The notes under the pieces: model-generated
What the model saw: only the letters and a program-made list of their open reading frames with translations
The model's database searches: none
Told to the model about the DNA's origin: nothing
Shown here: positions 762 through 24,843 of the stretch, piece after piece
Layout: every line of letters starts with the position of its first letter
Position numbering within the stretch: position 1 is the first letter of the stretch
Program-made: the position numbers and the translations under genes
Virus record (IMG/VR): IMGVR_UViG_3300010885_022505
Location: 1-24,843 of that record
Reading direction: 5' to 3' (one strand)
Origin: a virus
DNA: 24,843 nucleotides

Positions 762-1691
762 TTAAGCATTGCCCTTCTTCTCTGTTACGCCATAGTAGGC
801 GTATGGATCTGACGGTTGGAACGCATCTTCAAGTGCAGCCTCGGCCGCAGACCCGTCATCAAACATCGGACATATTGAGAAGAATGAGCATTTCCACTTG
901 CAATCGCGTGAAGGACTAGGGTATGCGATAAATCGGTGATCCCCACCTTCATTAAGTGCCTTACGTGCGTCCATCATGTTAGTTAAAACACCGTGGATAC
1001 GTTGCCAAAACGAGCGCAGGGCAAAAACATTGTGACGAACTTCAATTTGCTCGTAGAAAGGCGGCTTAGCGTTTGCAGAGCGCTTTACCTTCTTAAGCAT
1101 TGTAAATATTCCGCCTTCAGAGCGTTCACCTTCCTTGTTCTGCGCAGTTTCAAGCATCATGTATGTAAGAATCTGTTCATTCATGTGCGCCATTGCAGAG
1201 AAGTCGGTAAACGATCCGCCAACTGTCTTAAAGTCTCTAAACATACGCACTCCGTCAGCCTTACGACGTACACGCATGTCAATCTTACCTTGCAGGACAA
1301 CCTCGCCGTTAAGTAACGGCATCTCGATTATCTCTTCAGTAGAAATCATTTCTAGCTCAGCATCAATTCCATTTTCATCAACCCACTGTAGGTAACCTTC
1401 AAGCATGATGCGCCCGAGCTCTGCTTCAGAGTCTAGGTCGTATGTATCTCTAAAAGATTCCTCAAGAATTAGCTTATCTTTTACAACAAGTTCAGAGTGA
1501 GCCTCTAGAAGTGGGATGCCCTTGCCATAGTACATATCAAGAGCTTCGTGAACACGAGAGCCAAGCGCAAGAGCGCCTGTCATCTGTTGAGTTCTAGGTT
1601 GTAGGCGACGGTAGTAGCTAAGCCACCATCGTCTGCGACAATCCTTAAAGGTTTGGATCTCGGAGTTTGATATTCTTATTGGCTCGGTCAT
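762..1691 (-). CDS. PD-(D/E)XK nuclease, Cas4/RecB-like, with Fe-S cysteines
   Basis: The protein has 309 residues. The nuclease core is readable: H48 in GSRVHEAL, D138 in GKIDMR, and D153/K155 in FRDFKT (the D-x-K of the PD-(D/E)XK fold). C18 near the N-terminus and C264, C268 and C274 near the C-terminus match the one-plus-three cysteine layout that binds a [4Fe-4S] cluster in Cas4 and AddB nucleases. Such phage enzymes usually act as 5'-3' exonucleases in recombination or replication. The ATG at 1691 overlaps the TGA of the upstream helicase (ATGA) and has AGGA six bases ahead, so the two are probably translationally coupled. Nothing points to a CRISPR role: no cas1, cas2 or array was seen. 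Confidence 0.88.
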   Translation of the reverse strand: MTEPIRISNSEIQTFKDCRRRWWLSYYRRLQPRTQQMTGALALGSRVHEALDMYYGKGIPLLEAHSELVVKDKLILEESFRDTYDLDSEAELGRIMLEGYLQWVDENGIDAELEMISTEEIIEMPLLNGEVVLQGKIDMRVRRKADGVRMFRDFKTVGGSFTDFSAMAHMNEQILTYMMLETAQNKEGERSEGGIFTMLKKVKRSANAKPPFYEQIEVRHNVFALRSFWQRIHGVLTNMMDARKALNEGGDHRFIAYPSPSRDCKWKCSFFSICPMFDDGSAAEAALEDAFQPSDPYAYYGVTEKKGNA

Positions 1692-3490
1692 AGTTTTCCT
1701 GCCTTATCGTCCTTGAGTAGTGAGAGAAGCTTGTCCTTGTCCTTTACGATCTGTTCAAAGTTATCAGCCTTAGTTGACAAGACCTGGATAACTCTTTCCT
1801 CGATAGAACCATCGGTAACATAATCTGTGACAATAATTGAGTCATGTATTTCAGATCCAATGCGGTGCACGCGGTCAAGCGCCTGCTTGTGATCTACAAG
1901 TGACCACGGACGTTGCAACATTACTAAACGACGAGCCGCGGTAAGTGTAATTCCAACACCGCCAGCCTGTGCTGTAAAAAGTATCCACTTGATCTTGCCG
2001 GATTGGAAATCGTCAACCGCTTGTTGACGCTCATCTTCATCCTGAGCACCAGTGATGAGACCATGTGGAATCTTAGCCTTAGTCATTTCTGCACTAAGTA
2101 AATCTATAAGTTGTCGTGATACCGCACATACTGCAACTGAATCATCACCAAAGTCTCCGTTTGAGATGTCATCCATAAGCGAGTCAACCTTGCAGGAAGG
2201 CTCAGCAAGAATCGCACGCATCTCGCCAGTTTCTTCGTTTACATACATCTCTGCGTATGAGCTTGCAAACTGTAATAAGCGAATTGTCTGTGTTAGTGCT
2301 GAAGGTGCGGTAATTGCCTCGCCGTCCTCTAGCTCTGCAATCATCGTGTCACGCATCTGGTCATAAGCTTTCTTTTGCTTTGTAGACATCTCAATATCAC
2401 GACGTTCAAACATCATTTCGGGTAGCCAAGGCAACACCTTAGCCTTAAGCATGCGTCGCATGCGTGGATTTACAGTCGCGTAAAATTCTTCCTCCATGTG
2501 AGGCTTTACACCTAGAACCATCATGCCGCCAAAGGCATTCAACATTACGTTAACCATGCGGTCAACCCAACGGGTCTTGCTTGGCCACTCTTCAGGCGAT
2601 AGCCAGTGAAGGATTGACCATAGATCTAAGACGTTGTTGGCAATAGGTGTCCCTGTTAGAGCAAAGCGAATATCTGCGTTTCCTGTTGCGGCCCATAGGG
2701 CACGAGACTGCTTAGATTTTGGCTCCTTAGAGCGATGGATCTCGTCTGCAACTACAGCCTTAAAATCAATTGCATTAAGTTCTCGCCTGTGAACCTCACA
2801 GCGATTTATGGTAACCTTCTCGTCATGCCCGCCGCATTCCTGACACCGCGCAAGGGCGATGGAGCCATAGGAAGCAAGTCGAGAATGCGAGCGCAAGGAC
2901 TCCCAGTTAATAACATATACATCAGCCTCTTCCTCAAACACCTTACGTCGTTGAGTTGCTGATCCCTTAATAACTTCTACGTCAACTCCAGGCCACCACA
3001 TATCAAACTCGCGCTTCCAGTTTTTCTTTAATGTGTTGGGGCAGACGATAAGAGCAGGAAATACATCTTCCCCGTCATCTTGAAGCTTCTTTAGTGCTCT
3101 AATTGCCTGGGCTGTCTTGCCAAGACCAGGTTCATCCGCGAGCAATGCTCTACGGGCTACTGATAAAAATTTAACGCCTGCTCGCTGGTGTGGGAACAGG
3201 TCCTCGTTGCCCTCTTCCAGGGTTTCTAGGTCACGAAGTTCGTTCGCCGGGGTAATACGTGTTGTAACTTCGTTGGTTGCCCAAGCGGTTAATCTAGGTC
3301 CAATATTAAGGTCAGTCTTGAAGGTACTGCGCAGTGCTAGGCACGTTGCCCAACTTGTAGGCACGTTCCAAACCTGAGTTTTTGCATCCCACTTTGCACC
3401 TGGGATACTTTTACAAAGCTCCTTAAGACGCCACTCAGTATTGATAATTACGTGCTTGCCTGATTCGTCAAGCTCTACTTCAACTGGCAC
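1688..3490 (-). CDS. SNF2/DEAD-like superfamily 2 helicase
   Basis: A 600-residue SF2 helicase of the SNF2 branch. Motifs run in order: LFPHQRAGVKFL (98-109), Walker A DEPGLGKT (119-126), DEIH box (249-252), TGTPIAN (279-285), motif V around TAQAGGVGITLTAA (506-519) and motif VI QALDRVHRIG (536-545). The first ~60 residues resemble a HARP-like N-terminal extension, a weak impression. An unusual insert between motifs Ia and II carries C216, C219, C231 and H234, a likely zinc knuckle. It probably remodels or unwinds DNA during phage replication. The start is GTG at 3490 behind GGGAG nine bases upstream. An 87-base gap separates it from the resolvase upstream; I saw no convincing promoter there. 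Confidence 0.92.
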   Translation of the reverse strand: MPVEVELDESGKHVIINTEWRLKELCKSIPGAKWDAKTQVWNVPTSWATCLALRSTFKTDLNIGPRLTAWATNEVTTRITPANELRDLETLEEGNEDLFPHQRAGVKFLSVARRALLADEPGLGKTAQAIRALKKLQDDGEDVFPALIVCPNTLKKNWKREFDMWWPGVDVEVIKGSATQRRKVFEEEADVYVINWESLRSHSRLASYGSIALARCQECGGHDEKVTINRCEVHRRELNAIDFKAVVADEIHRSKEPKSKQSRALWAATGNADIRFALTGTPIANNVLDLWSILHWLSPEEWPSKTRWVDRMVNVMLNAFGGMMVLGVKPHMEEEFYATVNPRMRRMLKAKVLPWLPEMMFERRDIEMSTKQKKAYDQMRDTMIAELEDGEAITAPSALTQTIRLLQFASSYAEMYVNEETGEMRAILAEPSCKVDSLMDDISNGDFGDDSVAVCAVSRQLIDLLSAEMTKAKIPHGLITGAQDEDERQQAVDDFQSGKIKWILFTAQAGGVGITLTAARRLVMLQRPWSLVDHKQALDRVHRIGSEIHDSIIVTDYVTDGSIEERVIQVLSTKADNFEQIVKDKDKLLSLLKDDKAGKL

Positions 3491-3577: not shown

Positions 3578-4030
3578 TTATTGTAGGAGTCTTCTAGGGA
3601 TCCATCCTAGCTTTACGCACTGTAATAAGGCATGTCGTATCGCGTCAAGTGCGTGTCCTTCACCGCCCTTATGCCAATATTCCAGCTTCTTAAGTTTAGG
3701 ATTATCAAACATTGCCTTTGCGTCAGCAGGTGATTGAAAGTAGATGTCATCTGCACTTCTTCCTGCGTCCATAAGACATTGTTTTAGAATACCAATTTGC
3801 TCGAGGCTATATGGAGCCTGCGTCTTTTTAGCAGTCTGAGCGTTAATGATAAAGCGCTCGCAGACGATAACTACGTCAGGATACTCGACAAGAGTTTCTC
3901 GAATAGGCTTAGCGTATTCCTCCTGTTGATATTCTCCAGCCCAGACTAAGACAGGTTCCTGTCCTCTTTCAAACGAGAACAAAGTCATGCCTGTTGCCTT
4001 GCCTGGGTCTACCGATAAGATCATCTTCAC
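3578..4030 (-). CDS. RuvC-like Holliday junction resolvase
   Basis: This 150-residue protein has the RNase H-like fold signature of phage RuvC-type resolvases: SVDPGKATG with D8 on strand 1, VCERF with E58, and GEGHALDAIRH with H126/D129 near the end. These acidic residues would bind the two metal ions that cut branched DNA. Length is typical of phage RuvC homologues. The start is GTG at 4030, sharing one base with the TAG of the DNA polymerase gene (TAGTG). An internal ATG at 4024 is a possible alternative. Its place between polymerase and helicase fits resolution of replication or recombination intermediates before packaging. Confidence 0.87.
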   Translation of the reverse strand: MKMILSVDPGKATGMTLFSFERGQEPVLVWAGEYQQEEYAKPIRETLVEYPDVVIVCERFIINAQTAKKTQAPYSLEQIGILKQCLMDAGRSADDIYFQSPADAKAMFDNPKLKKLEYWHKGGEGHALDAIRHALLQCVKLGWIPRRLLQ

Positions 4031-5853
4031 TAGTATTTCTCTCCCCAGTTTTCCATAGGACCGTCAACACCGGCTGTAAGCGGAACTGCCCAACCTTCAG
4101 TGGTAGTCATGCATTCCTTAACTATGCGCTTGATTTCTTCAACGTTATTACGCGGCGCGTTGAGAACAATTTCATCGTGCACAGGGACAATTAGCAATTC
4201 GGTAAGATCTGCTTGATCTAGCTTTACAAGGTTCTGCTTAAATATCTCAGCAGCTCCTCCTTGAGCTAAGTAGTTAAGTAATGTGTAAACTCGATCTTCA
4301 TCACAAGGAAGTCTACGACCTGTCCATGTATGAACATACCCTTGGCCTTCTGCCTTGAGACGACGCATTCCTACATCTTCAATTTTTTGCTGAAATCCGG
4401 TCATGCCTGGGAAGCGTGTGTCAAACTGGCTGACTACAGTCTTCATTATGTTCTCTGGTACACCTGCGGTAAGTGCCTGCTTTGCAACACCTGCTCCGTA
4501 GAGACGACCATAGATCATTCCTTTGATGAGACCTCGTCGCTTGTCTGAACGCTGAAAGTTTGGATCACTGTATACTTCTTTTCCAATTTCAGTAAACGGG
4601 TCTGATCCAGTGAGGTCTGCCTGATGAAACATGCCGATAAGGTTTGGGTCTTCTGTGAGAGAGGCAACCATTCTAAACTCAACCTGGTCAAGGTCTGACG
4701 TAACAATTACATGATCTTCGTCCTTTGGGATAAACGCACGACGAACAACGTCATCACCCTTAGGTAAAGTCTGCAGCGCCGGGTTTTGAATTGACATACG
4801 TGAGGTGCGAGCGCCAAGTGTTTTAACAGATGGGTGCACAAAGCCGTTGACGTTATCGTTAAGAAAGTTGGCAAAGTAGGTATTAGCAAGCTTATCTGCC
4901 TTACGCTGCTTTAGCACGATTTCAGCCAAAGCCTTTACCTCATCATTGCCCTCAATGGTAAGTAGCTTGAGTTGATCCTTTGAAGCTGATTTTTGTCCCG
5001 AAGGTGTAAACTCGTTTATCTCTGCGCCAAGTGATTCTAGCAAGCGCACTAGTTGAATGTTGCTGCCAATAGAAACTCCGTTGTATTTTTCCTTAGCCCA
5101 TGTCTTAACTGATCCCGCGTATTCTGTCAACTCATCAAACTTCTTCCTTGAGTAGTCAAGGTCGATACGTGCGCCGTTAATTTCCATGCGAGTAACAATG
5201 CGACGTGTTGCCATCTCTAGCTCGTATGCTCTGTTGTATGGACCGTCAGGGCCACACTTTTCATAAAACTTTTCCCACAGGCGCATAGTTAAGATGCAGT
5301 CTAACGCACCGTATGCCCAATAAGGCTGAAAATTAGTAGGAACAGTTCCCCATGTCCAACCGTTAGTTGCTAACTCTGTGTCTAAGGTATCCTGCAAGGC
5401 AACCGCACGGCCGTCAATATACAAAGCTGCAAGACGCTTTAACGCACCAACACCAAGCGGATCAATAATGTGCGCCATAATCATTGTGTCGTGCGCGCGA
5501 TGCCAAGGCAGCTTCCAGCGCGATTGAATATCAAACCATCGAGCTTCAAACGCGATGTTGTGGCAAACAATTTGTCCATCAAACTTATCCATAGCTTGAT
5601 AGAACGCACCTGCCCACTCTTCCCATGACATTGCCCACGCTTGTTGACCATCGCCAACCTGCACTAGACGCAGGCGTCCGTGCCAAGGCGACAGTGCGTC
5701 CTTACGTTCACGCCCTGGATACTCTCCAGTTTCAGTGTCAATCGCAATTGCGTTGTGAGGACGACGCTCGCCAAGCCAGGTTAAGAACTCACCTGCTTTT
5801 TCAACGCTATCAACAAGGTGAAGTTTTACATCACCTAATCCTTCAATTGTCAT
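4030..5853 (-). CDS. DNA polymerase I (family A) with 3'-5' exonuclease
   Basis: A 607-residue phage replicative polymerase without a 5' nuclease domain. Exonuclease motifs are intact: AIDTETG (D39, E41), CHNIAFEARWF (98-107) and YGALDC (D185). Polymerase motif A is TSDLDQVEFR (D387), motif B is RRGLIKGMIYGRLYG (K444, Y448) and motif C is VPVHDEIV (HDE 559-561). The residue equivalent to E. coli Pol I F762 is tyrosine (Y448), as in T7 polymerase. Length and layout match the Pol A of many actinobacteriophages. The ATG at 5853 lies inside the last codons of the dCMP deaminase gene (11-base overlap), with GAGG six bases upstream. Confidence 0.96.
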   Translation of the reverse strand: MTIEGLGDVKLHLVDSVEKAGEFLTWLGERRPHNAIAIDTETGEYPGRERKDALSPWHGRLRLVQVGDGQQAWAMSWEEWAGAFYQAMDKFDGQIVCHNIAFEARWFDIQSRWKLPWHRAHDTMIMAHIIDPLGVGALKRLAALYIDGRAVALQDTLDTELATNGWTWGTVPTNFQPYWAYGALDCILTMRLWEKFYEKCGPDGPYNRAYELEMATRRIVTRMEINGARIDLDYSRKKFDELTEYAGSVKTWAKEKYNGVSIGSNIQLVRLLESLGAEINEFTPSGQKSASKDQLKLLTIEGNDEVKALAEIVLKQRKADKLANTYFANFLNDNVNGFVHPSVKTLGARTSRMSIQNPALQTLPKGDDVVRRAFIPKDEDHVIVTSDLDQVEFRMVASLTEDPNLIGMFHQADLTGSDPFTEIGKEVYSDPNFQRSDKRRGLIKGMIYGRLYGAGVAKQALTAGVPENIMKTVVSQFDTRFPGMTGFQQKIEDVGMRRLKAEGQGYVHTWTGRRLPCDEDRVYTLLNYLAQGGAAEIFKQNLVKLDQADLTELLIVPVHDEIVLNAPRNNVEEIKRIVKECMTTTEGWAVPLTAGVDGPMENWGEKY

Positions 5854-6322
5854 CTACGTCCTCTGTTATTACTACCTCAATGTTACATTTCTTAAAATAG
5901 TCTACTGTTGCATCCGGCAAACGATGAGCCGCCCGCGTTCCAATTCTCATGACAACGCGCGTAATACCAGAGTTAGAAATTAACTTTGCGCACTGATAGC
6001 ATGCTGCGTCTGTTATGTAGATGGTACCACCTTCTACGCGAGAACGATCAACGTATAGCAACGCATTTGACTCGGCGTGAATCGACGGGCATGAATCATA
6101 CGTGTTATCAAGTGCAGTTACTCCCTGCGCGCGCGGGCACCAGTCGATACAGTCTCCTTCAACTGGGAACAAGGCGGCAGGACCGTTGTAACCCGTCGAG
6201 CTTATGCGTTGATCCTTAGACACAACAACAGCTCCGATGTGAGCGCGACTACAGCGAGATCTCTGCGAGATTGTATCTGCAACTTGCATCCAGACATCGT
6301 CCCAGGAAGGACGACTATTCAT
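5843..6322 (-). CDS. Deoxycytidylate (dCMP) deaminase
   Basis: A zinc-dependent cytidine deaminase fold of the ComEB/dCMP deaminase type, converting dCMP to dUMP. The active-site HAE is in SIHAESNAL (about residue 82). The second zinc motif, usually PCxxC, reads ACYQC here (C108, C111). The extra pair in DCIDWCPR fits the structural zinc of dCMP deaminases. I chose ATG at 6322, which overlaps the stop of the small upstream gene (ATGAATAG) and has GTGGGA ahead. An in-frame GTG at 6331 would add three residues but lacks a ribosome site. In T4-like nucleotide pathways this enzyme coexists with dCMP hydroxymethylase, the combination found here. Confidence 0.92.
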   Translation of the reverse strand: MNSRPSWDDVWMQVADTISQRSRCSRAHIGAVVVSKDQRISSTGYNGPAALFPVEGDCIDWCPRAQGVTALDNTYDSCPSIHAESNALLYVDRSRVEGGTIYITDAACYQCAKLISNSGITRVVMRIGTRAAHRLPDATVDYFKKCNIEVVITEDVDDN

Positions 6323-6482
6323 CTGTCCCACTAAAAAGTGATGTTGTAAGAATTTTTGACACTAAATTTAGCGCGTCCTTCTTGCTAAAGCCCGCGGCTC
6401 TAAGCTCAACATACATCTCATGGAGTTGCACAGTTGCCTCACGCAGGGGACTTTCATTGAACCCCTCTAATTCATTACTCAC
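6315..6482 (-). CDS. Small helical protein of unknown function
   Basis: A 55-residue protein not matched to a family. I place the start at GTG 6482 because AAAGGAG lies seven bases upstream; a longer reading from 6554 would sit almost wholly inside the glycosyltransferase gene without such a site. The start codon lies in the last codons of the glycosyltransferase gene (GTGAGTAA), and its stop overlaps the dCMP deaminase start, so it bridges the two genes by coupling. The body (LREATVQLHEMYVELRAAG, then FSKKDALNLVSKILT) predicts two amphipathic helices and no membrane segment. Proteins of this helical type are common in phage replication operons, with no known job that I can assign. Confidence 0.7.
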   Translation of the reverse strand: MSNELEGFNESPLREATVQLHEMYVELRAAGFSKKDALNLVSKILTTSLFSGTDE

Positions 6483-7518
6483 TACGTTCTCCTTTCTGGT
6501 TTGCCCATAGTTGATCACATCTTCTAATGTACTTATTCGTGACGCCAACTGCAAACTCTATTGCCTCAGATGATACTTTGTACATCACATTATGCTGCCC
6601 TGGGGCAAGTATTTTTCCCCAGTAGGGAGCTAGTTTCTTAGCGAGAGGAGAAAAGCTGTCGGAAAAAGAGTGGTCGCTAACAAGAAGAGGATTATTATCT
6701 TCAGGGTGCATCTGAAGTCTATCCCACATCTGCGCAATATCTTCATCTGGCGTTATAGTCTTTGCAAAAACCTTGTTTGCAAAGTTATTGTTGACACGTT
6801 CGTGCACGTCCTTGCGCGCCTTAAATCTCTTTAAGCTTGTATAAGGTAGATGACATATTAGCCAATCTTCCTTACTAGACGCAGCAACTGTTGTATCCCA
6901 TAGTTCCCAGAACTTGCCGTCGCCATACTTAAGTTGATGCTGCCCGGCGTCAACAAAGTCGCCGGAGTTGTTTTTTACTAATATCTTTGACGGAACCCTA
7001 AACTCATGTAGAAGCTTCTCGTTTCGTTTAACCTGCTCGTGAAACTCGTCGCGGTCTACCACGTGGTTAATAGACGTGACGTAGTGATTGACAAGTTGAT
7101 AATCATCTAGTCTAGTATCGATAAACCCAGACGGCACTATGTAGTTTTCCAGCTGCATTGCTATGGCATTCCACCTAGCGTCTAGACTTGACAGATGATC
7201 CCTTATGCTTTTTCTAGTAGGGCTAACCAAAAATTCATCAGCGTCAAAGATAAAATTCCAATCAGGATTTTCCTTGTTACTAATGTCAAGAAGAATGTTA
7301 GTTAATGCTTCCTGGTCAAACAGCGTGTCCTCGTAGCGAAATACCTCTATTTGATCTGGCCATACCTTTTGCAACTCAACAAGACCGTTTTTAGTGTCGT
7401 CTGTGCTCGAGTGGTCAATGACAAATACCTTGTCAACATGGTAAAAAAGTGCATGCGAAATAGATATACCTAGTAAAGGCCACTCATTTCTCGCAATGAC
7501 AACTCCGTGAATTTTCAT
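6475..7518 (-). CDS. Glycosyltransferase, GT2 / GT-A fold
   Basis: A 347-residue protein whose first 100 residues are a GT-A sugar-nucleotide domain: IHGVVIARNEWPLLG, then VFVIDHSSTDDT (33-42), and the metal-binding DxD in FIFDADEFLV (residues 92-94). This is closest to the family-2-type 'Glyco_tranf_2_4' enzymes. The C-terminal 200 residues are not assigned. The ATG at 7518 overlaps the TGA of the hydroxymethylase-like gene (ATGA). Family members most often glycosylate polysaccharide or protein. Here, coupling to a dCMP-hydroxymethylase-like gene raises the possibility that the acceptor is 5-hydroxymethylcytosine in DNA, as with T4 glucosyltransferases, although those are a different family. 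The acceptor is an inference. Confidence 0.83.
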   Translation of the reverse strand: MKIHGVVIARNEWPLLGISISHALFYHVDKVFVIDHSSTDDTKNGLVELQKVWPDQIEVFRYEDTLFDQEALTNILLDISNKENPDWNFIFDADEFLVSPTRKSIRDHLSSLDARWNAIAMQLENYIVPSGFIDTRLDDYQLVNHYVTSINHVVDRDEFHEQVKRNEKLLHEFRVPSKILVKNNSGDFVDAGQHQLKYGDGKFWELWDTTVAASSKEDWLICHLPYTSLKRFKARKDVHERVNNNFANKVFAKTITPDEDIAQMWDRLQMHPEDNNPLLVSDHSFSDSFSPLAKKLAPYWGKILAPGQHNVMYKVSSEAIEFAVGVTNKYIRRCDQLWANQKGERSE

Positions 7519-8366
7519 CGGCTCTTGATAGCCTTAATCATCGCGTTGGCATACCATGCCTCAAAAGGATGTAGTGCACTAAGAAGCATAGGGTCTTCTC
7601 TGTGCGTTGCAGCTGTTAATGCAGACATCGCGCGATCTCGTACCTGTTGCCAGTTTGCGCCCGTGATGGCAGGTATATTTTCATAACGCTCAGTTGTGTG
7701 CTTTAGATTTTCTGCGGTCTCGTAGTGTTGCTCGTAGATATGAAGAGATCCAACGTGATGCGCATACGTGCCAGGTGCAATATCTAAGACTGACGCCATG
7801 GCAATTTGCACACGTGTAAACTGGAAGAAGTCATACGCGGCGCCTAGCCATACGTCGTTTGAGCGCATGTAAACGCTCATGTTAAGTTTGTTATCACGGA
7901 TTCTAAATTGGTGCAGGATTGTGCATGGGTAATCACGCTTCTCCGGGAGTAGATCTAGCTCAGGGTTCCAGATTGTAACCACTGCCTGTCGTGAATCAGG
8001 ATCCTTCTTAAGACGCTCGATAACTGGTTCATACTGGTTCTCTGTGCGTGCGCCGTATGCTCCATGAAATATGCCGTTGTCCTCGGCGTAGTTCTTAAAC
8101 ATCGGACCTACCTCGATAACAAGCTTAGGAGTTGCGGTGCCTGCTAGAAGCTGGCAGGCTTCAACCGCACCAATTCCCGCGACAGTTCCACGACCTACAC
8201 CTAGCGGAAGCGTGTTGCGCACGTCATCAATACGAATTATTGCGTCCTCAATCTCGCGGGTCTTCATTCCGCGGGGAGCTGCCTCCTTGCCGTATTTAAG
8301 AACGTGCTGAACGAGATCAACGTATCCGTTAACTCCGTCAGGTATGTTGATTATCGCAGTATCCAT
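7515..8366 (-). CDS. Thymidylate-synthase-family enzyme, likely dCMP hydroxymethylase
   Basis: A 283-residue ThyA-fold protein. Family landmarks are DPDSR (122-126), catalytic C148 in DYPCTILHQF, and MRSNDVWLGAAYDFFQF (167-183). In thymidylate synthases the last block has Asn (LGLPFNI in E. coli), which reads the uracil ring. Here it is D179, the residue used by T4 gp42 dCMP hydroxymethylase at the same site. The RSND string and VGSLHIY (205-211) are also closer to T4 gp42 (RSND, VGSLHVY, from memory) than to ThyA (RSCD, GGDTHLY). The expected product is therefore 5-hydroxymethyl-dCMP rather than dTMP. ATG at 8366 has AGGG seven bases ahead and overlaps the kinase gene by 16 bases. Confidence 0.85.
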   Translation of the reverse strand: MDTAIINIPDGVNGYVDLVQHVLKYGKEAAPRGMKTREIEDAIIRIDDVRNTLPLGVGRGTVAGIGAVEACQLLAGTATPKLVIEVGPMFKNYAEDNGIFHGAYGARTENQYEPVIERLKKDPDSRQAVVTIWNPELDLLPEKRDYPCTILHQFRIRDNKLNMSVYMRSNDVWLGAAYDFFQFTRVQIAMASVLDIAPGTYAHHVGSLHIYEQHYETAENLKHTTERYENIPAITGANWQQVRDRAMSALTAATHREDPMLLSALHPFEAWYANAMIKAIKSR

Positions 8367-9367
8367 TGATCATCCCTATCTCTCTTGTTAGATAAACGTG
8401 TAATAGCCTGGCCGTATTCTTCTTTTCTTGAGTTAAAAAATCGTCTTACGTATTGCGGGTGAGAAGTTACAGAGTAAAGATAGCTAGGTATGTTTGCATA
8501 CATAAGTCCTTTTTCCGCAAGACGCCCTAATGCAACTATAGGTGGACGACGTAGTGTAGCCCAGAGATCATCAAAGCGCTCTGGAGACATGTCGTTGATG
8601 TTAACTATTCCCATCGTCTTCCACTCCTCAGACTCCAAGGCCGTAAGTAAAAACTCGCCGGAGTTTCCGTCAACCGGCATAAATGGAAGCCTAGTCTCCT
8701 CGCCATATCTTTTACTGATGTTTCTGGTGTCACCTACAAGAAGCACCCTTGGAAACCTTTGCCCGATGTACTCTGGAAACCTTACAAGATCCTTCACGTC
8801 ATCCTGAAGCGTCTCTGCACGGCTGATAACCTGTGACGCAAGTCTTGGTATCTCGTCAAATGAGTCAGGAGGGGGAGTTAGTTTCCCGGCAAGTCCCGCG
8901 GAGTTTGCGGCTGCTACCGCGTATAGATCTAGGATCTGTTCAAGTTCATGTGCCTGTATGTAATCGTCACCGCGAGCATTAAGACGACGAGTAATAACGT
9001 CAAGAGGTTGATACAGCCAAAATTGAGATACACCGCGAGATTTAAGAAAGAGCTCTGTCCAACGCCACCCTGCAACACCAAGGAGACCATATCCATCACC
9101 AGAACCAGTCTCAGGGCGTTTAACCGCGGCGTATGTTACCTCGCCCCAATGCCACCGGTCTGCAACCGCAAGGCGCCTTGACCAGTCAACTTTTTCGATA
9201 GACGTAACGTAATCCTGTAGAACCCAACGACGCGTCATCTCTTCAGGCTTAGACTTATGGTAGAACTCAATTTCCTGTTTAGGAAACTTCTCGGCAAGTT
9301 GCCTTTGTATCTCAGACACAAGGGTAGATTTACCTGAGGCGTCCGTGCCTTCAACTACTATAAACAT
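8351..9367 (-). CDS. Thymidylate/dNMP kinase-like P-loop domain fused to UDG-like domain
   Basis: A 338-residue two-domain protein. Residues 1-185 are a thymidylate-kinase-like NMP kinase: Walker A GTDASGKST (7-15), ADRWHW (69-74) in the usual DR-x region, and RRLNARGDD (127-135) as a lid-like arginine segment. Residues 205-325 look like the uracil-DNA glycosylase superfamily (family 4/5 layout): VLLVGDTRN at motif I, PF...GNSGEFLLTAL (228-243), PPIVALGRLA (275-284) and SHPQYVRRF (302-310) at motif II. Motif I (GDTRN) departs from the usual GEAPG, so activity is uncertain and base binding is possible. This is the first gene after the 9399 promoter; AGGA lies eight bases before the ATG. A role phosphorylating hydroxymethyl-dCMP is inferred from context. 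Confidence 0.78.
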   Translation of the reverse strand: MFIVVEGTDASGKSTLVSEIQRQLAEKFPKQEIEFYHKSKPEEMTRRWVLQDYVTSIEKVDWSRRLAVADRWHWGEVTYAAVKRPETGSGDGYGLLGVAGWRWTELFLKSRGVSQFWLYQPLDVITRRLNARGDDYIQAHELEQILDLYAVAAANSAGLAGKLTPPPDSFDEIPRLASQVISRAETLQDDVKDLVRFPEYIGQRFPRVLLVGDTRNISKRYGEETRLPFMPVDGNSGEFLLTALESEEWKTMGIVNINDMSPERFDDLWATLRRPPIVALGRLAEKGLMYANIPSYLYSVTSHPQYVRRFFNSRKEEYGQAITRLSNKRDRDDQWILR

Positions 9368-10543: not shown

Positions 10544-12418
10544 TTATCCTACCGCACTTACCCACGCTGAGTACCCAGCTGAATTTCCAGCCCTAACAAA
10601 CATTCTAACCCAAGTATACGTATTTGATGTTGATGTAACTCTTCCTTCAAATATACTAGTCCCGTAGACTGTTGCGGCAGATGCTACTGTATAGGCGTTT
10701 GTCGCTGTTGTAAGCGGAGTCCCCGCCGACAGAGCGGCAGCTGAAGCATAGTACTTAAAGTTGCTGTTTACAGCAAACCAGGGTCCAGAGCTAGAAGTGG
10801 ATGCCTCAACATACACCTGGTAGTAAGCTGCAGCGCTATGGCTTGCATCAACTGATGGCGCACTCCATGACGAACTGTTAAATACAAGGTTAGGAGCTGT
10901 TCCGCTTGACGGTGTAGACAGTCCAGTAGGTGCATTTGGTATAGTGGTGACAGCAGCAGTGGTAGTAAAGGTAGCAGTATCTGGGCTTGCGTATGCAAAA
11001 GGGCCAGTCTGATCTGTTTTTGTGTACGCTAAAATTTGATAGGTGTACGCTGTGCCAGCCGTAAGCCCAGTTAAAGCCTGGCTTGATACGTTGCTTGCCA
11101 AGTCAAATGGTGAACTAGTAATGTTTGTTCCTGCCTGTCTTACGTACAACTTGTAACTTCCAGCGCCTGTTGCGCCCGACCAGCTTATCGTTGCCGTAGT
11201 TTGAGTGATAGAACCAGCGCTTTGAGTAGGAGTTGCCGGCGAGGTGTATATGGTTGCGCTCCCAGGCATTCCAACTGTGTTAGAATTTGCAGCTCTAATA
11301 TAGAGAGTATTAGTGCTTCCAGTTCCTAATCCGGTAAATGTATACGATGTTACGTTTCCTATGGAGGTGTAGGTTGATCCGTCGGTGCTAGATTGGTATG
11401 AAGTTGCCCCAGTTATGGCAGACCACGTAACTTCCGCTGATGTTGAGGTGTACGTAGCGCCTTGATTTAAGGAAGGAGCTTGTAGTTTAGTGTATATAGT
11501 ATTCGTGTCTGGAGAAGCATATGTAAATGACCCGGTCTGACCTGCCCCGGAATAGGCTAATATTTGGTAATAATACGGAGTATTACGTGAAAGACCTGAA
11601 GAGATGGTTAAACTTGTAGTTGCCGTGGTGTATGAGTATGGAGAAGACGCAACATTTGTCAACGGAGATAGCGATGACCAAACATATAACTTCCAGCTGC
11701 CGGTTGTTCCTGTTCCGGCTGCCCAGCTTATAGTAATTGAGGTGTCCGTTGACGTAGCGCTTTGCGTAGGTGTTCCCGGCGCCGCGGTTGGAGTTCCGGA
11801 CACGGTTCCCGCCGTGCCGTATAGCGCAGTTGATGAGTTATATGCCTTCACATAGAAAGTATACGCAGTTCCTGTTGTTAGTCCGGTAAATGTATAAGAT
11901 GTCACATTTCCTACGGAGGTGTAGGTTGATCCATTTGTGCTAACGTAGTATGCAGTAGCTCCGCTTATCGCAGACCAGCTGACAGTTACAGACGTAGCGG
12001 CTGTCGCAGAAACGCTTAACGAGGGAGTCGCGGGCGTAGTGTAAAAGGTAGCGGTAGCAGTTGTTGTAAATCCACTAGGAAATGAAGTCCAGCCCTGAAC
12101 TGTTGCCGTGTAACTAGTATTTGCACTTAAGGCTGCTGTAGTATAAGTAGTAGTAGCTCCAAGGTCTTGTTGAGAAAAAGCGGCAGGAGAAATGCTTAAT
12201 CTAAAATAGGCGTATCCAACCGACGATATGGTAAAGGTAGCGTTAGTAGCAGTGACATTTGATACCGCTAGGGAAAGAGCGGATGAAGTAAAGAATGTTT
12301 TCCAAGCTCCTGCAACTTTTACATATCCGTCAGATACAGTCTTCCAGGCTCCACCTACCTTTACATAGTAGCTTGTAGCAGTCTTCCAGGAACTTGAGAC
12401 CTTAGCGTAGCTAGCCAT
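10544..12418 (-). CDS. Fibronectin type III tail/appendage protein
   Basis: A 624-residue, Ser/Thr/Ala-rich protein. Residues 4-43 hold three short repeats of the form YVKVGGAWKT, seen at the start of many phage tail-tip proteins. About five fibronectin-III-like domains follow at 46-128, 129-211, 213-311, 312-394 and 395-487, and a divergent beta domain fills 494-624. Typical strand patterns are SVTVSWSAISGATAYYV and TSYTFTGLTTGTAYTFYV. Domains 2-3 and 4-5 are a tandem duplication visible in the DNA. Such proteins usually decorate the tail tip or fibre and bind cell-surface sugars. The ATG at 12418 overlaps the TAA of the fibre gene (TAATG). It may be the receptor-binding protein; that is an inference. 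Confidence 0.82.
   Translation of the reverse strand: MASYAKVSSSWKTATSYYVKVGGAWKTVSDGYVKVAGAWKTFFTSSALSLAVSNVTATNATFTISSVGYAYFRLSISPAAFSQQDLGATTTYTTAALSANTSYTATVQGWTSFPSGFTTTATATFYTTPATPSLSVSATAATSVTVSWSAISGATAYYVSTNGSTYTSVGNVTSYTFTGLTTGTAYTFYVKAYNSSTALYGTAGTVSGTPTAAPGTPTQSATSTDTSITISWAAGTGTTGSWKLYVWSSLSPLTNVASSPYSYTTATTSLTISSGLSRNTPYYYQILAYSGAGQTGSFTYASPDTNTIYTKLQAPSLNQGATYTSTSAEVTWSAITGATSYQSSTDGSTYTSIGNVTSYTFTGLGTGSTNTLYIRAANSNTVGMPGSATIYTSPATPTQSAGSITQTTATISWSGATGAGSYKLYVRQAGTNITSSPFDLASNVSSQALTGLTAGTAYTYQILAYTKTDQTGPFAYASPDTATFTTTAAVTTIPNAPTGLSTPSSGTAPNLVFNSSSWSAPSVDASHSAAAYYQVYVEASTSSSGPWFAVNSNFKYYASAAALSAGTPLTTATNAYTVASAATVYGTSIFEGRVTSTSNTYTWVRMFVRAGNSAGYSAWVSAVG
10958..12034 (-). repeat. 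Tandem duplication of a two-domain FN3 unit
   Basis: The unit coded at 11486-12034 (domains 2+3) recurs at 10958-11485 (domains 4+5). Long stretches match at the DNA level, for example around 11331-11410 and 11882-11960 (shared core GGAGGTGTAGGTTGATCC). The protein phrases YTS-GNVTSYTFTGL and QTG-F-YASPDT recur. Retained DNA similarity suggests a recent duplication or recombination between copies. Confidence 0.8.
12290..12409 (-). repeat. Three YVKVGGAWKT repeats
   Basis: Residues 4-43 of the FN3 protein contain YAKVSSSWKT, YVKVGGAWKT and YVKVAGAWKT, spaced 14-15 residues apart. The shared K-V-x-x-x-W-K-T pattern suggests a small beta-repeat attachment segment at the N-terminus. Confidence 0.75.
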
Positions 12419-14391
12419 TATGCAGTGTACACCAATACAACGTCGCCGTCAGTTCCAGTGGTATCTGATCCCGCAGTAAAAGAAGTAACACACTTAATAT
12501 TTCTTAAGGCATACCGGCTGTAAAGTGAACCAGTACTTAATTCTGCATAAGTATTTGTAATTAAAATGTTGTTGTTGTTACTGCCGCCTACAACTCCTAT
12601 TATTGCGTATCCTGAAGTTCCAGTTCCTGCAGAGTTTAAGACTATAGCGCCACGGCCAGTTCCTGATCCAAAACTTTGCCCGTATATACTTAGATTACTG
12701 CTAGTGCCTGACAGGTTAGCAGCAATGCTTAAACCTCCAGGTGCGCTGCCAGCTCCTGAGTCCATCGCGATCCCAACTCCTGAAGATTCCCAACTAAGAA
12801 CTGTTGGAGCAAGAGTCACACGCGGAGCGCCCGAACTTACAGAGGAAAACGATGTGACTGAGTTGGTGCTGATAACGCCAGATGTCAAAGTAGGAGACGT
12901 CATAGTGATAGCAGCAGCGATAGTTCCGGCGTTAATTTGAGTTGTGTTAATAGTTCCTGTGTAGATAACATTAACGTCAAGTGATCCGGCATTTATCTTA
13001 TTTGCGTTAATAGTCCCCGAGTATATAACGCCTGCCGCAAGTGTACCTGCGTTGATCTGGCTAGCATTTACAGTTCCGGCATAGACGATGTTTGACGCAA
13101 TCGTGCCGGTGCTAATCTGGTTGGCGTTAAGACTTCCAGCATACACAACACCAGCCGCTAGAGTTCCGGTAGAAATTTGCGTTGCCGATATACTTGTTAT
13201 CGCACTGCTACCAAGAAGAATTGATTTCCAACCGGCGCTATTGGTAATTGTGCCTGACGCCGCGGCTGATGTGACGTTTGTAGCTGTCTTAGCATAGGTA
13301 AGTGTCGTAGTTGTAGGCACTGCAATAACTGTGTATGTACCGTTAAATGTTGCGTCTACGGATGTAACTACGATGGACTCGCCGGGAGTGAAGCTGTGCG
13401 CGGCCGAGGTTGTCAATGTCGCAACGTTAGATGTAAGAGCCTTGTTAGATACCGTAGAAGATGTTGAAAGAGAGTACCTGTAGATGGCGTTATCACCGTC
13501 GGTGTCAAACCAGGTGTCTCCTGCAACGTATGTTCCGCCTGTCGGCACGGTTGTTTGACGATATATCTTGTTTTTTCCGTCCGCCGTGCTTTGCGCTGCT
13601 AGAGCCGCAGCTTCACCTGCTGCTGCTGCCGCTGCCGCTGCTGCTGCCGCTGCCGCTGCTGCTGCGATTGCAGTATCTTGAGAAGATACCCATCCAGCAG
13701 CGCTGATAGCCGAACCTGAAGATGCCACTGACACAACGTTAGATGCTGTTTTAGCATAGGTAAACGTAGAAGTTGTAGGAGTAGAGGCTACTGTGTATGT
13801 GCCGTTGAATGTGGCATCTACCGCCGATACAGTAATGCTTTGACCAATTGCTAGTTCATGAGCCCCGCTAGTTGTTAAGGTTGCAACGTTGGACGTAAGA
13901 GCCTTGTTAGATACCGTAGAAGTTGTACCAAGTACGTATCTATAAAGTTTATTTCCATCATCGCTGTCATACCATAGATCATTTTCCTTATACGTTCCAC
14001 CAGTTGGTGCAGATGTTTGAACATAGATGGTGTTTTTTCCATCAGCGGTTTGCTGAGCGTTTGCATCTGTGACAGGGACAAACTCATCAAGATCTGTGCT
14101 GTAGAGTTGGTACTCGCCGGTGTCTGGGTTAAACCAGCCGGTGCCTGGCTTTAAGTATTCTGTTGGCTCGGTGTCGCTAACAACGGTAGTTCCGAAGGAT
14201 GCCTCGTTAGGTGTTACCGCGTCTTCTTGAATTACCTTTGTTGTTACCGCACGGTACCCAAGCTTCTCAGTTGTTACAACGTTAGCCTTGAGACGTTTTG
14301 CAGCAGGCCGCTTCTCAACACGGCGAACGCGTTTCTCAACGTCAACGATAACCTTGCCGATACTCTTACGGCGTCTACGTCTACTGGCCAA
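12418..14391 (-). CDS. Repeat-rich minor tail / tail fibre protein
   Basis: About 657 residues. A basic N-terminus (MASRRRRRKSIGK) is followed by a helix, then two ~120-residue units (TADGKN to AAGW/SAGW), each ending in an E1_FCCH-like beta module. A run of 16 alanines separates the units. Five 20-residue repeats of the type AGTLAAGVIYSGTINANKIN follow, which should form a trimeric beta-helical stalk, then a Gly/Ser-rich C-terminal head. This layout is that of a trimeric fibre. The start is likely TTG at 14391, nine bases after GGAGG; TTG at 14400 directly abuts the same GGAGG and is less likely. The frame overlaps the minor tail gene upstream. Numbering in the repeat entries counts from 14400. 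Confidence 0.83.
   Translation of the reverse strand: MASRRRRRKSIGKVIVDVEKRVRRVEKRPAAKRLKANVVTTEKLGYRAVTTKVIQEDAVTPNEASFGTTVVSDTEPTEYLKPGTGWFNPDTGEYQLYSTDLDEFVPVTDANAQQTADGKNTIYVQTSAPTGGTYKENDLWYDSDDGNKLYRYVLGTTSTVSNKALTSNVATLTTSGAHELAIGQSITVSAVDATFNGTYTVASTPTTSTFTYAKTASNVVSVASSGSAISAAGWVSSQDTAIAAAAAAAAAAAAAAAAGEAAALAAQSTADGKNKIYRQTTVPTGGTYVAGDTWFDTDGDNAIYRYSLSTSSTVSNKALTSNVATLTTSAAHSFTPGESIVVTSVDATFNGTYTVIAVPTTTTLTYAKTATNVTSAAASGTITNSAGWKSILLGSSAITSISATQISTGTLAAGVVYAGSLNANQISTGTIASNIVYAGTVNASQINAGTLAAGVIYSGTINANKINAGSLDVNVIYTGTINTTQINAGTIAAAITMTSPTLTSGVISTNSVTSFSSVSSGAPRVTLAPTVLSWESSGVGIAMDSGAGSAPGGLSIAANLSGTSSNLSIYGQSFGSGTGRGAIVLNSAGTGTSGYAIIGVVGGSNNNNILITNTYAELSTGSLYSRYALRNIKCVTSFTAGSDTTGTDGDVVLVYTA
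12910..13188 (-). repeat. Five 20-residue stalk repeats in the fibre
   Basis: Residues 405-497 consist of five copies of a 20-residue unit with consensus INAGTLAAGVIYAGTINANQ. The period is exact (60 bases each) and hydrophobic positions are kept, as in triple beta-helix fibre shafts. It is coding and has no spacers, so it is not a CRISPR array. Confidence 0.85.
13228..14049 (-). repeat. Duplicated 120-residue unit with E1_FCCH-like module and poly-Ala linker
   Basis: Unit 1 (13690-14049) and unit 2 (13228-13587) share TADGKN, PTGGTY, a DxWxD segment, then an E1_FCCH-like module (13708-13914 and 13243-13452). The modules share STVSNKALTSNVATLTTS exactly, and the DNA around 13430-13460 and 13885-13920 is nearly identical. 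Between them, 13618-13665 codes 16 alanines in mixed GCN codons. Confidence 0.82.
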
Positions 14392-16348
14392 TCTTGTCAA
14401 CCTCCGGCTCTGTAACTAGCAGCAGCTCAGTTTCCTCCGGGAAACTTGGTGTGTCTGGGACTGAAACCTTAAATCCTTCAATCTTGCGAACGATTACTGT
14501 ATCGCGAACCTCGAGATCACTTGCAAGACGCATTCTTACAAATTCGTCTTCAACGATAATTGAGCACCAGTCTCCCGGCACAAACTCGCCGATCTTCGGA
14601 GATAGAGATCCGTTAACCTTTACCTTGATGTCTGAGACAGGAGGACGTGACTCTGCGAGGTATCGTTGAGCGTGACCGTATAGCGCGAGCTCGTCTGATT
14701 CCTCGCTGCGAGTCTCCTCTCCATCGAGTAGCGGCCAGCCTGCGGCTAACAGATCGGTAGCGGACGCGACAGCGTAAGGCTGGCTGATGTCATCGCCAAG
14801 ATCTGGGATGTTTCCAACAACAAAGAAGCGTGTTGCCGCGTCCTCGGCAGATTCTTCCATGGTTACGTCGATGATGCTTCCGGGATACTCAAACACAAGT
14901 TGATCAGCGCCGTAGCGACTTGGCGGAGAGACCTGTCCCTCCGCGGGAGGATTTGGATAGTCAATAGGTATAAGAACAAATGTGCGTGTAAACGTAGGGA
15001 TGTCGCCGATGTAGACAAGTTCGCAGTCAATACGATATTCAAAACCATCTACCGTGTCGGAGTACTCGTCTAGTTCCTCGCCGACGGACTTTAGTTCATA
15101 TCCGCGATATGGATTATTTGGCACGTTCTTACCGCTATACGCATCTGTAGAATATGAGATATCAATGTCAGAGTTGCCAGGAAACGGCCCGTATGTTCCA
15201 ATGTCCACAGTTGATTGAACAACCGCAGTTCCACCGGTTACCGCTGTCGCAACCATGTCGCTGTCCGCGACATAAACCCTAAACGTCGTGGCGGTTGGCA
15301 CGTCTACAATCTGATACTCGCCGTCAAATACTATGGTAAGAGAAGTAGGGTCATCTACGCCTGTAAGCACAACGGTGTCGTATTGTGCAAAGCCGTGGGC
15401 ATTGCTTGTGGTAATCGTTGCGGTAAAGTCGGCAACTGACTTAAGTGTTACTGTTTTAGTTATGTTCTTTACCGAGGACGTTAACGATGATGCAATGGTA
15501 AACGTAGTAGCGCTTGGTGTTGCGACTACATCCCACAAACCGTCAAGACCAGCCGACACGTTATAGATTTCTAATGACTGCGTAGGTATCAGGTTGTGAG
15601 CAGACACGGTGGTTACGGTAGTTACGCTTGACGGCGCGGTAATAGATGTGATTCGCAGACTAGTAGTAAGAGCAGGCTCTATGTCCGTGTTAGGAAATGA
15701 GATGTCGCTAAAGTCCACAAGAATCTCGTCAAGCAGCTGGCGCACGTAGTCGTAGGTGTCAACACGCGCGTAGACTGTTACACCTACGTATGTCCCGTTG
15801 GGAACGGACGTGCCGGTAATTGTAAACGTAGCATTTGTAGGAGAGGATGCTATCGTGTAGTATGCGTTATAGATAAAGTCAGAAACCTCTGGAAATATAA
15901 GACGCACCGACGATCCTACGGGAAAGTCATACTCCAAGGATTCTAGGGTTCCAGTTAGTGTTCCGCCAGACGCGACGATGGTTGCGCCAAAATCGTGAGT
16001 ATATGTCTTCCAGATGTTACGGTGGAAGAAGTAGCTGGTAAACTCTGACGCGCTAACACTTAGGTCTCGATCAACAACGTTGTAGTTGCGGTTCCAGATA
16101 ATTCCACCCCAGACGCACTCGCTATCGCGAACAACGTAGAGTCCAGTTTTTCCCGGCATCGTGCTTTCATATAGGTTCATTGACGCTGTCTCCGGGATAA
16201 CCGGTATGCTGCCGCCAAAGCTTCCCGCGGCCTTGATGGATCTTTCAAAGGAAACTCCCTTAAAAGGAATCTCCGCAAGTACTTCGTTAGTTAAAAGATC
16301 GGTGGTAAAATATCGGTATATGGCCGCGTCTGATTGGTACAGTACCAT
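14381..16348 (-). CDS. Minor tail protein with inserted beta modules
   Basis: A 655-residue protein. The N-terminus (FKGVSFERSIKAAGSFGGSIP, then GKTGLYVVRDSECVWGGIIW at 67-85) and the C-terminus (PGDWCSIIVEDEFVRMRL, RKIEGFKVSVP) match the actinophage minor tail protein found right after the Dit-like gene, comparable to Gp37-type (ReqiPepy6) siphovirus proteins. It would sit at the tail tip. The part between about 121 and 378 is mostly extra beta modules: a clear one at 297-378, a weaker one at 232-287 and a marginal one at 121-192. ATG at 16348 has GAGGT upstream. The end overlaps the start of the fibre gene. Confidence 0.83.
   Translation of the reverse strand: MVLYQSDAAIYRYFTTDLLTNEVLAEIPFKGVSFERSIKAAGSFGGSIPVIPETASMNLYESTMPGKTGLYVVRDSECVWGGIIWNRNYNVVDRDLSVSASEFTSYFFHRNIWKTYTHDFGATIVASGGTLTGTLESLEYDFPVGSSVRLIFPEVSDFIYNAYYTIASSPTNATFTITGTSVPNGTYVGVTVYARVDTYDYVRQLLDEILVDFSDISFPNTDIEPALTTSLRITSITAPSSVTTVTTVSAHNLIPTQSLEIYNVSAGLDGLWDVVATPSATTFTIASSLTSSVKNITKTVTLKSVADFTATITTSNAHGFAQYDTVVLTGVDDPTSLTIVFDGEYQIVDVPTATTFRVYVADSDMVATAVTGGTAVVQSTVDIGTYGPFPGNSDIDISYSTDAYSGKNVPNNPYRGYELKSVGEELDEYSDTVDGFEYRIDCELVYIGDIPTFTRTFVLIPIDYPNPPAEGQVSPPSRYGADQLVFEYPGSIIDVTMEESAEDAATRFFVVGNIPDLGDDISQPYAVASATDLLAAGWPLLDGEETRSEESDELALYGHAQRYLAESRPPVSDIKVKVNGSLSPKIGEFVPGDWCSIIVEDEFVRMRLASDLEVRDTVIVRKIEGFKVSVPDTPSFPEETELLLVTEPEVDKIGQ
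15215..15460 (-). repeat. E1_FCCH-like beta module in minor tail protein
   Basis: Residues 297-378 include TATITTSNAHGFAQYDTVVL and VFDGEYQIVDVPTATTF, the pattern shared with the other copies (TTxxAHGF, then G-x-Y-x-I, then V-P-T-x-T-T-F). A weaker copy precedes it at 15488-15655 (TTVSAHNLIPTQSLEIYNVS, then VVATPSATTFTIASS). A marginal one at 15773-15988 keeps only the YTIASSPTNATFTI ending. Confidence 0.65.
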
Positions 16349-16393
16349 TTGTTATACCTCACTAAGTAGATTCGTCGTTGAGTACATTGTATA

Positions 16394-24311: not shown

Positions 24312-24355
24312 TTATCTATCCCGTCTAATCGTCGTTAGTGTATATCTTAATAGAG

Positions 24356-24399
24356 GAGCGGCATGCCTGTGTTGGTGGTAACACATCGGCATGCCGCTC
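24356..24399 (-). terminator. Long perfect hairpin after the major virion gene
   Basis: Arms GAGCGGCATGCC (24356-24367) and GGCATGCCGCTC (24388-24399) pair perfectly over 12 bp. Inside, TGTGTT/AACACA adds six more pairs around a GGTGGT loop, with a 2-base bulge. It fills the 99-base gap between the gene ending at 24411 and the adaptor at 24311. No strong U-run follows on the transcribed strand, so it may be a partial terminator, an RNA-end stabiliser or a processing site that sets high expression of the gene before it. Confidence 0.7.
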
Positions 24400-24410
24400 A
24401 CATTCTATTA

Positions 24411-24843
24411 TTAAGAGGTTGGATCCTCGGTAGACGCGAGGATAAAGTCTACAGCGTTATCAGCGTTATAGTCTTCGTTTCCAGGAACGTTATAAGCTGT
24501 TGTTGAACCTTGTGAGGTAAAGTCTGTAACCTCACGTGAGTTAGTGGCAACAACTGCTGTGCCTGAAGCTGCAGCTGAAGCAATAGTTCCAGATGCTGAA
24601 GTTGTGTACGTAAACGTTGTGGTTGTCGGAACAGTCAAGATTGTGTATGTTCCATTTAGCGATACGTTTGCAGATAGAAGACCTGCAACTACTACAGAGT
24701 CGCCAACTTCAAAGGTGTGCGCTGCCGATGTAGTTACTGTAGCTGTAGTTCCTGTACGCGCGACGTTTGAAACAGTTTTTGAGATCTCTGGGTGCCATCT
24801 GTAGAATCCCTTGCGACCTGTTGGAGCCCAGCCAGCACGAGCA
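24411..24843 (-). CDS. Major capsid or major tail protein, C-terminal part (5' end beyond window)
   Basis: The frame is open from the window edge (first full codon at 24842) to TAA at 24411, 143 residues. It begins ARAGWAPTGRKGFYRWHPEI, then an E1_FCCH-like module (about 24549-24782), and ends AVDFILASTEDPTS. A TTG at 24638 is internal, not a start. Position just before the head-to-tail adaptor, and the hairpin after it, favour the major capsid protein with an added surface domain. However, no major tail protein was found in its usual place further down, so this could be that gene. The fragment does not settle it. Confidence 0.7.
   Translation of the reverse strand, partial: ARAGWAPTGRKGFYRWHPEISKTVSNVARTGTTATVTTSAAHTFEVGDSVVVAGLLSANVSLNGTYTILTVPTTTTFTYTTSASGTIASAAASGTAVVATNSREVTDFTSQGSTTAYNVPGNEDYNADNAVDFILASTEDPTS
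24549..24782 (-). repeat. E1_FCCH-like module in the major virion protein
   Basis: The module runs from SKTVSNVARTGTTATVTTSA through HTFEVGDSVVVAG to VSLNGTYTILTVPTTTTFTY and a Ser/Ala-rich end. It shares the T-T-S-A-A-H, G-D-x-V-V-V, N-G-T-Y-T-I and V-P-T-T-T-T string with the other copies. Confidence 0.78.

Follow-up and report, generated by a model that had tools for sequence, protein, structure and literature searches.

Phages are known to place modified cytosine in their own DNA. In T4 gp42, a member of the thymidylate synthase (TS) superfamily, Asp179 has been described as the determinant of dCMP over dUMP, and an Asp or Glu three residues ahead of the catalytic Cys (Asp145 in T4) as the signature of hydroxymethylation; the D145N and D179N exchanges abolish formation of 5-hydroxymethyl-dCMP (5hm-dCMP), and S94A retains about 25% of the activity (PMC6400193). 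MilA, the CMP 5-hydroxymethylase of Streptomyces rimofaciens, belongs to antibiotic biosynthesis, and two of its residues, Ala176 and Lys133, have been reported to set the choice of CMP over dCMP (PMC5175136). A Mosigvirus enzyme forming 5-hydroxy-dCMP is homologous to, yet distinct from, the hydroxymethylase (PMC13390438); RB69 is a Mosigvirus, and its ORF048c is nearly identical to a solved enzyme of this kind, 9iqc. Phage dCMP hydroxymethylases are a known kind of enzyme, and Asp177-type enzymes of environmental phages have already been published: in viromes, an Asp at the site equivalent to T4 residue 179 accompanies modified-cytosine contigs, and the position that follows the catalytic Cys (E. 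coli residue 147) is a second discriminating one (PMC8670742).

We analyzed a virus record of 24,843 bases (IMGVR_UViG_3300010885_022505; this whole stretch is called the window below), which carries replication and tail genes. On its minus strand, positions 7515..8366 encode a TS-superfamily protein of 283 residues (PF00303, E 6.7e-30), which we predict to be a deoxycytidylate 5-hydroxymethylase on the basis of its active-site residues and of MilA as its best solved relative. Its best names in PHROG and NCBIfam are thymidylate synthase, with every NCBIfam match lying under its cut-off. The homologue in the record of DSL-LC01, which was assembled from a lake and has a predicted Actinomycetia host, carries the same name, as do most of the relatives from Gordonia phages; the word "thymidylate" is absent from the main text of the DSL-LC01 paper (PMC10611076). 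Even T4 gp42 is labeled thymidylate synthase in NC_000866, accompanied by a correct note.

The original prediction, which concerned positions 7785-7875, held that an Asp in place of the ThyA Asn marks the enzyme as dCMP-specific and that neighboring motifs match gp42 better than ThyA. Alignment with fetched sequences of T4 gp42 (NC_000866) and E. coli ThyA (NC_000913) bears out the replacement: the base-specificity residue D179 (codon GAC, 7830..7832, minus strand) aligns with gp42 Asp179 and with E. coli ThyA Asn177. This codon and the motif R168-S169-N170-D171 (RSND; 7854..7865, minus strand) lie within 7785-7875, and the VGSLHIY motif (about 7734-7754, minus strand) lies outside it. Both motifs are indeed nearer to gp42 (MRSND, VGSLHVY) than to E. 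coli ThyA (QRSCD, GGDTHLY). The likeness to gp42 does not, however, extend to the whole protein, which is 23.3% identical to gp42 and 24.0% identical to E. coli ThyA.

We compared active-site residues in four sets, comprising the window together with 80 viral-contig relatives (window clade, n=81), ThyA (n=81), T4-type (n=81) and RB69-type (n=17) proteins; one of 199 loci (L119) lacked a profile match and was dropped. Residue 179 is Asp in every member of the window clade, in 81/81 T4-type and in 17/17 RB69-type proteins. The 80 relatives were found with six peptides, one of which includes D179, and the peptides for the T4-type set likewise include one with this residue, so its conservation is slightly biased in both sets; 15 further diagnostic residues are as invariant as D179 in the 80 relatives. 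D145, C148, T149, S169, D171 and Y211 are likewise present in 81/81 proteins of the window clade. All 81 ThyA proteins, by comparison, have Leu at 145, His at 149 (H147) and Asn at 179 (N177).

These residues bear on the annotated function, that of an ordinary thymidylate synthase with dUMP as its substrate. Such an enzyme would fit the PF00303 match and the best PHROG and NCBIfam names, and the enzyme gene is the sole PF00303 gene, with no ThyX, in each of 11 long related records. N177 and H147 are nevertheless invariant in ThyA where the window clade invariably has Asp and Thr, the NCBIfam matches all fall short of their cut-offs, and nesting of the clade within ThyA was rejected (see below). 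On the residues and the nested-tree test we discarded this function, which we regard as extremely improbable.

The claim that the Asp marks a dCMP-specific enzyme stands in part. There is good support for cytosine over uracil as the base of the substrate, but the Asp alone is insufficient: MilA, the RB69-type proteins and phage DLP4 have Asp at this position too, and therefore further residues are needed to reach a dCMP 5-hydroxymethylase. In the window protein, the sequence D145-Y-P-C148 (7923..7934, minus strand) places an Asp three residues ahead of the catalytic Cys in the alignment, as in the published hydroxymethylation signature (PMC6400193). S169 and R126, the counterparts of T4 Ser169 and Arg123, form a deoxyribose-type pair found in 81/81 members of the window clade. 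D171, the folate-side Asp according to the papers, is retained together with Y211 throughout the window clade and also in T4-type and ThyA proteins. As judged from sequence, D145 points to hydroxymethylation, D171 and Y211 to folate chemistry, and S169 and R126 to a deoxyribose substrate, and all five agree with a dCMP 5-hydroxymethylase.

One signature residue deviates. The Ser/Thr two residues before Tyr96 in T4 (Ser94), which is Ser in 80/81 T4-type proteins, is Gly102 in 81/81 proteins of the window clade. SPO1 gp29, whose annotation is dUMP hydroxymethylase, has Ala at this position in the alignment, so Ser94 is not universal among hydroxymethylases; in view of this and of the residual activity of T4 S94A, we do not consider the deviation fatal to the hydroxymethylase reading. 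The second phosphate Arg is replaced by Gln127 in 81/81 members of the clade, and gp29 has the same Gln. SPO1 gp29 also resembles the window protein in its D145 equivalent and in RSND; it differs in having Asn at position 179 and Cys-Asn instead of Cys-Thr. A dUMP hydroxymethylase of the SPO1 type, with Asn at the base site, was set aside on the Asp found in the window protein.

Residue 145 also bears on a dCMP 5-methylase of the type of the 5-methylcytosine phage Xp12, which would yield 5-methyl-dCMP. Precedent exists, in that a single Asn-to-Asp exchange converts a true thymidylate synthase to a dCMP methylase (PMC8670742), and relatives of the window also carry a C5-methyltransferase (see below). 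Yet in the Xp12 relative DLP4, the Asp at 179 goes together with Asn145 and Pro149, whereas D145 of the window protein is the Asp of hydroxymethylases. DLP4 moreover has a dihydrofolate reductase (DHFR) gene next but one to the enzyme gene, with a dCMP deaminase gene near (L306:14817-16707), and DHFR genes were found in 0/11 long related records. DLP4 stands in for Xp12 by kinship, the features expected of a methylase (a non-acidic residue 145 and a DHFR gene) are deduced from DLP4, and the window is a fragment; with these provisos, the DLP4 residues and the absence of DHFR led us to reject an Xp12-type methylase, which we consider very unlikely. As an observation in its own right, the DLP4 combination of Asp179, Asn145 and Pro149 may be a residue signature of dCMP methylases.

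A structure model of the enzyme, based on 31 sequences (pLDDT 88.8), was used for a fold search. MilA gave the best match (5jnh_B, Z 25.9, 2.6 Å, 273 residues aligned), followed by 9iqc (Z 21.0) and then by thymidylate synthases at Z values of about 19. The PF00303 match, the model and the fold search, together with C148, place the window protein in the TS fold with a catalytic Cys; a fold match does not show function. MilA is the closest solved structure by sequence as well (E 2.6e-24; 34.5% identity over the 206 columns of the aligned part), and it shares Cys-Thr and the equivalents of Asp145 and Asp179 with the window protein. Although MilA is thus the best PDB match by both measures, a ribonucleotide hydroxymethylase acting on CMP is highly improbable: MilA has Ala176 and Lys133 for ribose where the window protein has the dCMP-type S169 and R126, the two residues on which we rejected this specificity, and the window gene sits in a DNA replication operon.

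The structure search also raised a flavin-dependent 5-hydroxy-dCMP synthase, as represented by RB69 ORF048c and AfhB of phage HY126, which adds OH directly to C5, where a sugar is then attached. The best matches of the model after MilA, 9iqc and 9iqu (Z 19.9), are dCMP complexes of such an enzyme, and RB69-type proteins share with the window protein the superfamily, Asp at 179 and the dCMP substrate; a sister placement with them was not rejected in the tree (p-AU 0.22). In 17/17 RB69-type proteins, however, position 145 is Glu, 171 is Asn and 211 is Phe, as against D145, D171 and Y211 in the window protein. Identity to this type is only 20.1%, and the RB69 protein stops soon past its HVF motif, where the window protein extends by about 70 further residues. 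We rejected such a hydroxylase on residues 145, 171 and 211 and consider it very unlikely.

We next placed the window protein in a tree of 75 rows, from which the diagnostic columns 145, 149 and 179 had been removed. The rows comprised the window and 12/80 viral relatives, 16 named-record proteins including T4 gp42 and E. coli ThyA, part of MilA, 19/22 genome-contig hits, 5/17 RB69-type proteins, 9/80 T4-type loci and 12/80 phage ThyA loci; L116 (lacking the Cys), L118 (odd) and L119 were omitted. In this quick tree with long branches, in which the placement of SPO1 gp29, MilA, Montesquieu, L089, L110 and L112 is unsure, the window falls in a clade of 14 rows with DSL-LC01 (SH-aLRT 98), to which four Gordonia phages and an Acidimicrobiales MAG contig attach (99). 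ThyA, T4-type and RB69-type proteins each form a separate group (100). The DSL-LC01 protein is 63% and the Gordonia phage proteins about 37-41% identical to the window protein in the matched regions; in the comparison that gave the gp42 and ThyA identities above, DSL-LC01 stands at 61.7%. The "thymidylate synthases" of DSL-LC01 and of the Gordonia phages Sixama, Phendrix, Forza and GMA2 have the same diagnostic residues as the window protein.

Constrained trees, with groups chosen after the tree had been seen, rejected nesting of the window clade in ThyA (p-AU 6.7e-07); firm placement inside ThyA, which the original prediction had named as the outcome that would speak against it, thus did not occur. 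A sister placement to ThyA was not rejected (p-AU 0.24), and holding the clade with the T4-type proteins was weakly rejected (p-AU 0.028). On this tree the diagnostic Asp/Asn state requires at least three changes. T4 gp42 shares with the window protein the equivalents of C148, D145, D179, S169, R126 and Tyr96 and the MRSND and VGSLH motifs, but it differs in the low identity given above, in Ser94 versus Gly and in belonging to another clade. A simple gp42 relative was therefore rejected as a matter of kinship, on tree and identity, and gp42 was kept as an analogy. Taking the residues together with published work on homologues and the absence of DHFR genes from the long related records, we consider it likely that the gene encodes a folate-dependent dCMP 5-hydroxymethylase of the TS superfamily.

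The gene lies in a minus-strand operon. Upstream, 8351..9367 (minus strand) encode a P-loop nucleotide (dNMP-type) kinase of 338 residues, assigned by phrog_761 and a structure model. On the other side follow, all on the minus strand, a family 2-like glycosyltransferase gene (6475..7518, 347 residues; PF13704, E 1.5e-12), a dCMP deaminase gene (5843..6331; PF00383, E 1.1e-17; phrog_174, E 3.3e-46), a family A DNA polymerase gene (PolA, 4030..5853; PF00476, E 5.3e-52), a gene for a protein of phrog_1981 (3578-4030; the equivalent in DSL-LC01 is named RuvC-like), and genes for an SNF2 helicase (1688-3490) and a Cas4-like exonuclease (762-1691); a Sak4-like ATPase gene belongs to the same operon. 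We examined the neighborhood in 84 loci, namely the window, 80 viral contigs and three named phages; many contigs are truncated. The kinase-hydroxymethylase-deaminase-PolA operon is conserved among them: the hydroxymethylase family is present in 84, the kinase in 82, PolA in 81, the deaminase in 79, the RuvC-like protein and the helicase in 73 each, the exonuclease in 69 and the Sak4-like ATPase in 65. DSL-LC01 has the same order of kinase, enzyme, deaminase and PolA, and Phendrix and Sixama have it with small genes between. The family-2 glycosyltransferase occurs in 10/84 loci (the window and 9/83 others), and DSL-LC01 lacks it at the window's spot. A family of 65-residue proteins (c10) is present at 54/84 loci and lies, in many relatives, between the hydroxymethylase and deaminase genes; the window copy was not called, and a small ORF at 6315..6554 (minus strand; 79 residues from the first start) resembles this family by eye.

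In the relatives, the region downstream of the point where the window stops holds two ORFs of phrog_14998 and an enzyme of the dUTPase_2 family. The latter was found in 10/11 long records, with one stop within the matched stretch of the copy in G010; the record lacking it, G009, is one whose second phrog_14998 ORF abuts the contig end. The T4 dCTPase gp56 matches the same Pfam family (E 2e-05; DSL-LC01 enzyme, 1.1e-12). The joint presence of hydroxymethylase, kinase, deaminase, dUTPase_2 enzyme and possible sugar transfer therefore amounts to a T4-like gene set, dCTP removal included.

Our best reading is a T4-like pathway to 5-hydroxymethylcytosine (5hmC) DNA in actinophages, in which we infer the flow of intermediates, incorporation into DNA and glycosylation from the gene set. 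Cys148 would attack C6 of dCMP, Asp179 would hold the cytosine and protonate its N3, and methylene-tetrahydrofolate would donate the carbon; a water positioned by Asp145 would then end the reaction, giving 5hm-dCMP instead of a methyl group. The adjoining kinase would raise 5hm-dCMP toward the triphosphate, which the PolA of the operon would incorporate into phage DNA instead of cytosine. The dCTPase/dUTPase-family enzyme of the relatives would deplete the dCTP pool, and the hydroxymethyl group may be glycosylated by sugar transferases. With its dUMP, the deaminase would feed thymidylate synthesis by the host. Given an active site built for dCMP, the virus probably makes modified cytosine for its own DNA. 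One finding counts against this pathway: a C5-cytosine DNA methyltransferase (PF00145) is encoded in 8/11 long relatives (for example L121:2459-3721, minus strand, and L081:26996-28240 in DSL-LC01), which would be odd if every cytosine already bore a C5 group.

The tandem phrog_14998 ORFs, located ahead of the dUTPase_2 gene (L121:5184-7444, minus strand), are candidate DNA sugar transferases. The families of the first ORF (weak in G010) and of the second are each present in 11/11 long records. As glycosyltransferases they gave no useful Pfam, NCBIfam or PDB-profile match and no profile match to the T4 beta-glucosyltransferase or to the ATCCB one; one of them is called a glycosyltransferase in the DSL-LC01 record only. 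A UDP-galactopyranose mutase, considered as a possible common component of the pathway, was found in 1/11 long relatives, DSL-LC01.

The kinase model (pLDDT 92.1) matches YorR (2axp_A, Z 18.1) over residues 1-204, about the part covered by the fold comparison. Residues 200-338 (8354-8770, minus strand) form a C-terminal domain that is present in most of the clade; the kinases of Sixama and Phendrix lack it, as they are short (198 and 260 residues). In 12/24 relatives this domain has a weak, below-cut-off match to the Pfam UDG family (best E 0.0019), which the window copy lacks; profile search yielded no solved structure for it, and the literature searched contained nothing specific on a kinase/UDG fusion. 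Such a fusion of a nucleotide kinase with a glycosylase-like domain, encoded beside a cytosine-modifying enzyme, is unusual. We further considered whether actinophages of the DSL-LC01 type make a hypermodified cytosine by an undescribed route, in which 5hmC from the hydroxymethylase would be decorated by the tandem phrog_14998 sugar transferases, which differ from known 5hmC transferases, with the family-2 transferase assisting in the window subgroup, and the kinase/UDG-like fusion would take part in the chemistry by acting on 5hmC in nucleotides or DNA. We regard such a route as unlikely; if real, it would parallel, on cytosine, the thymine hypermodification that is already known.

Some observations concern other loci or other parts of the window. 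In L100:5932-8633 (Catellatospora) and L101:5950-8582 (Salinispora), an Asp-bearing hydroxymethylase-like gene (clade L099-L105) directly precedes a gene with both carbamoyltransferase domains. A pairing of hydroxymethylase and carbamoyltransferase has been reported for phage 5-carbamoyloxymethylcytosine (PMC8670742); the bacterial gene pair is possibly a nucleoside biosynthesis cluster. L098, a contig in an Acidimicrobiales MAG, shows by eye the window's order of kinase, hydroxymethylase, PolA, RuvC, helicase, exonuclease and Sak4, and because of this shared order it is probably a phage of Acidimicrobiales. In the window, at 12418-18031 and 22944-24842 (minus strand), several predicted tail proteins contain, by eye, a repeat of about 50 residues (like VSNKALTSNVATLTTSAAHSF...ATFNGTYTV...TYAKTATNV).

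In the open-licence literature, searched with incomplete coverage, we came across no paper that identifies the enzymes of this actinophage clade as hydroxymethylases, and cytosine modification seems not to have been described before in this lineage. Among the proteins examined, residues 145, 149, 169, 171, 179 and 211 separate ThyA, dCMP hydroxymethylase, 5-hydroxy-dCMP synthase and CMP hydroxymethylase and therefore offer a means of correcting other records labeled "thymidylate synthase". The cultured Gordonia phages of the window clade make the presence of modified cytosine directly testable by mass spectrometry. If our reading is true, widespread uncultured actinophages whose enzyme is annotated as a plain thymidylate synthase make modified-cytosine DNA, and such DNA would be expected to evade host restriction, some CRISPR systems and some sequencing methods.
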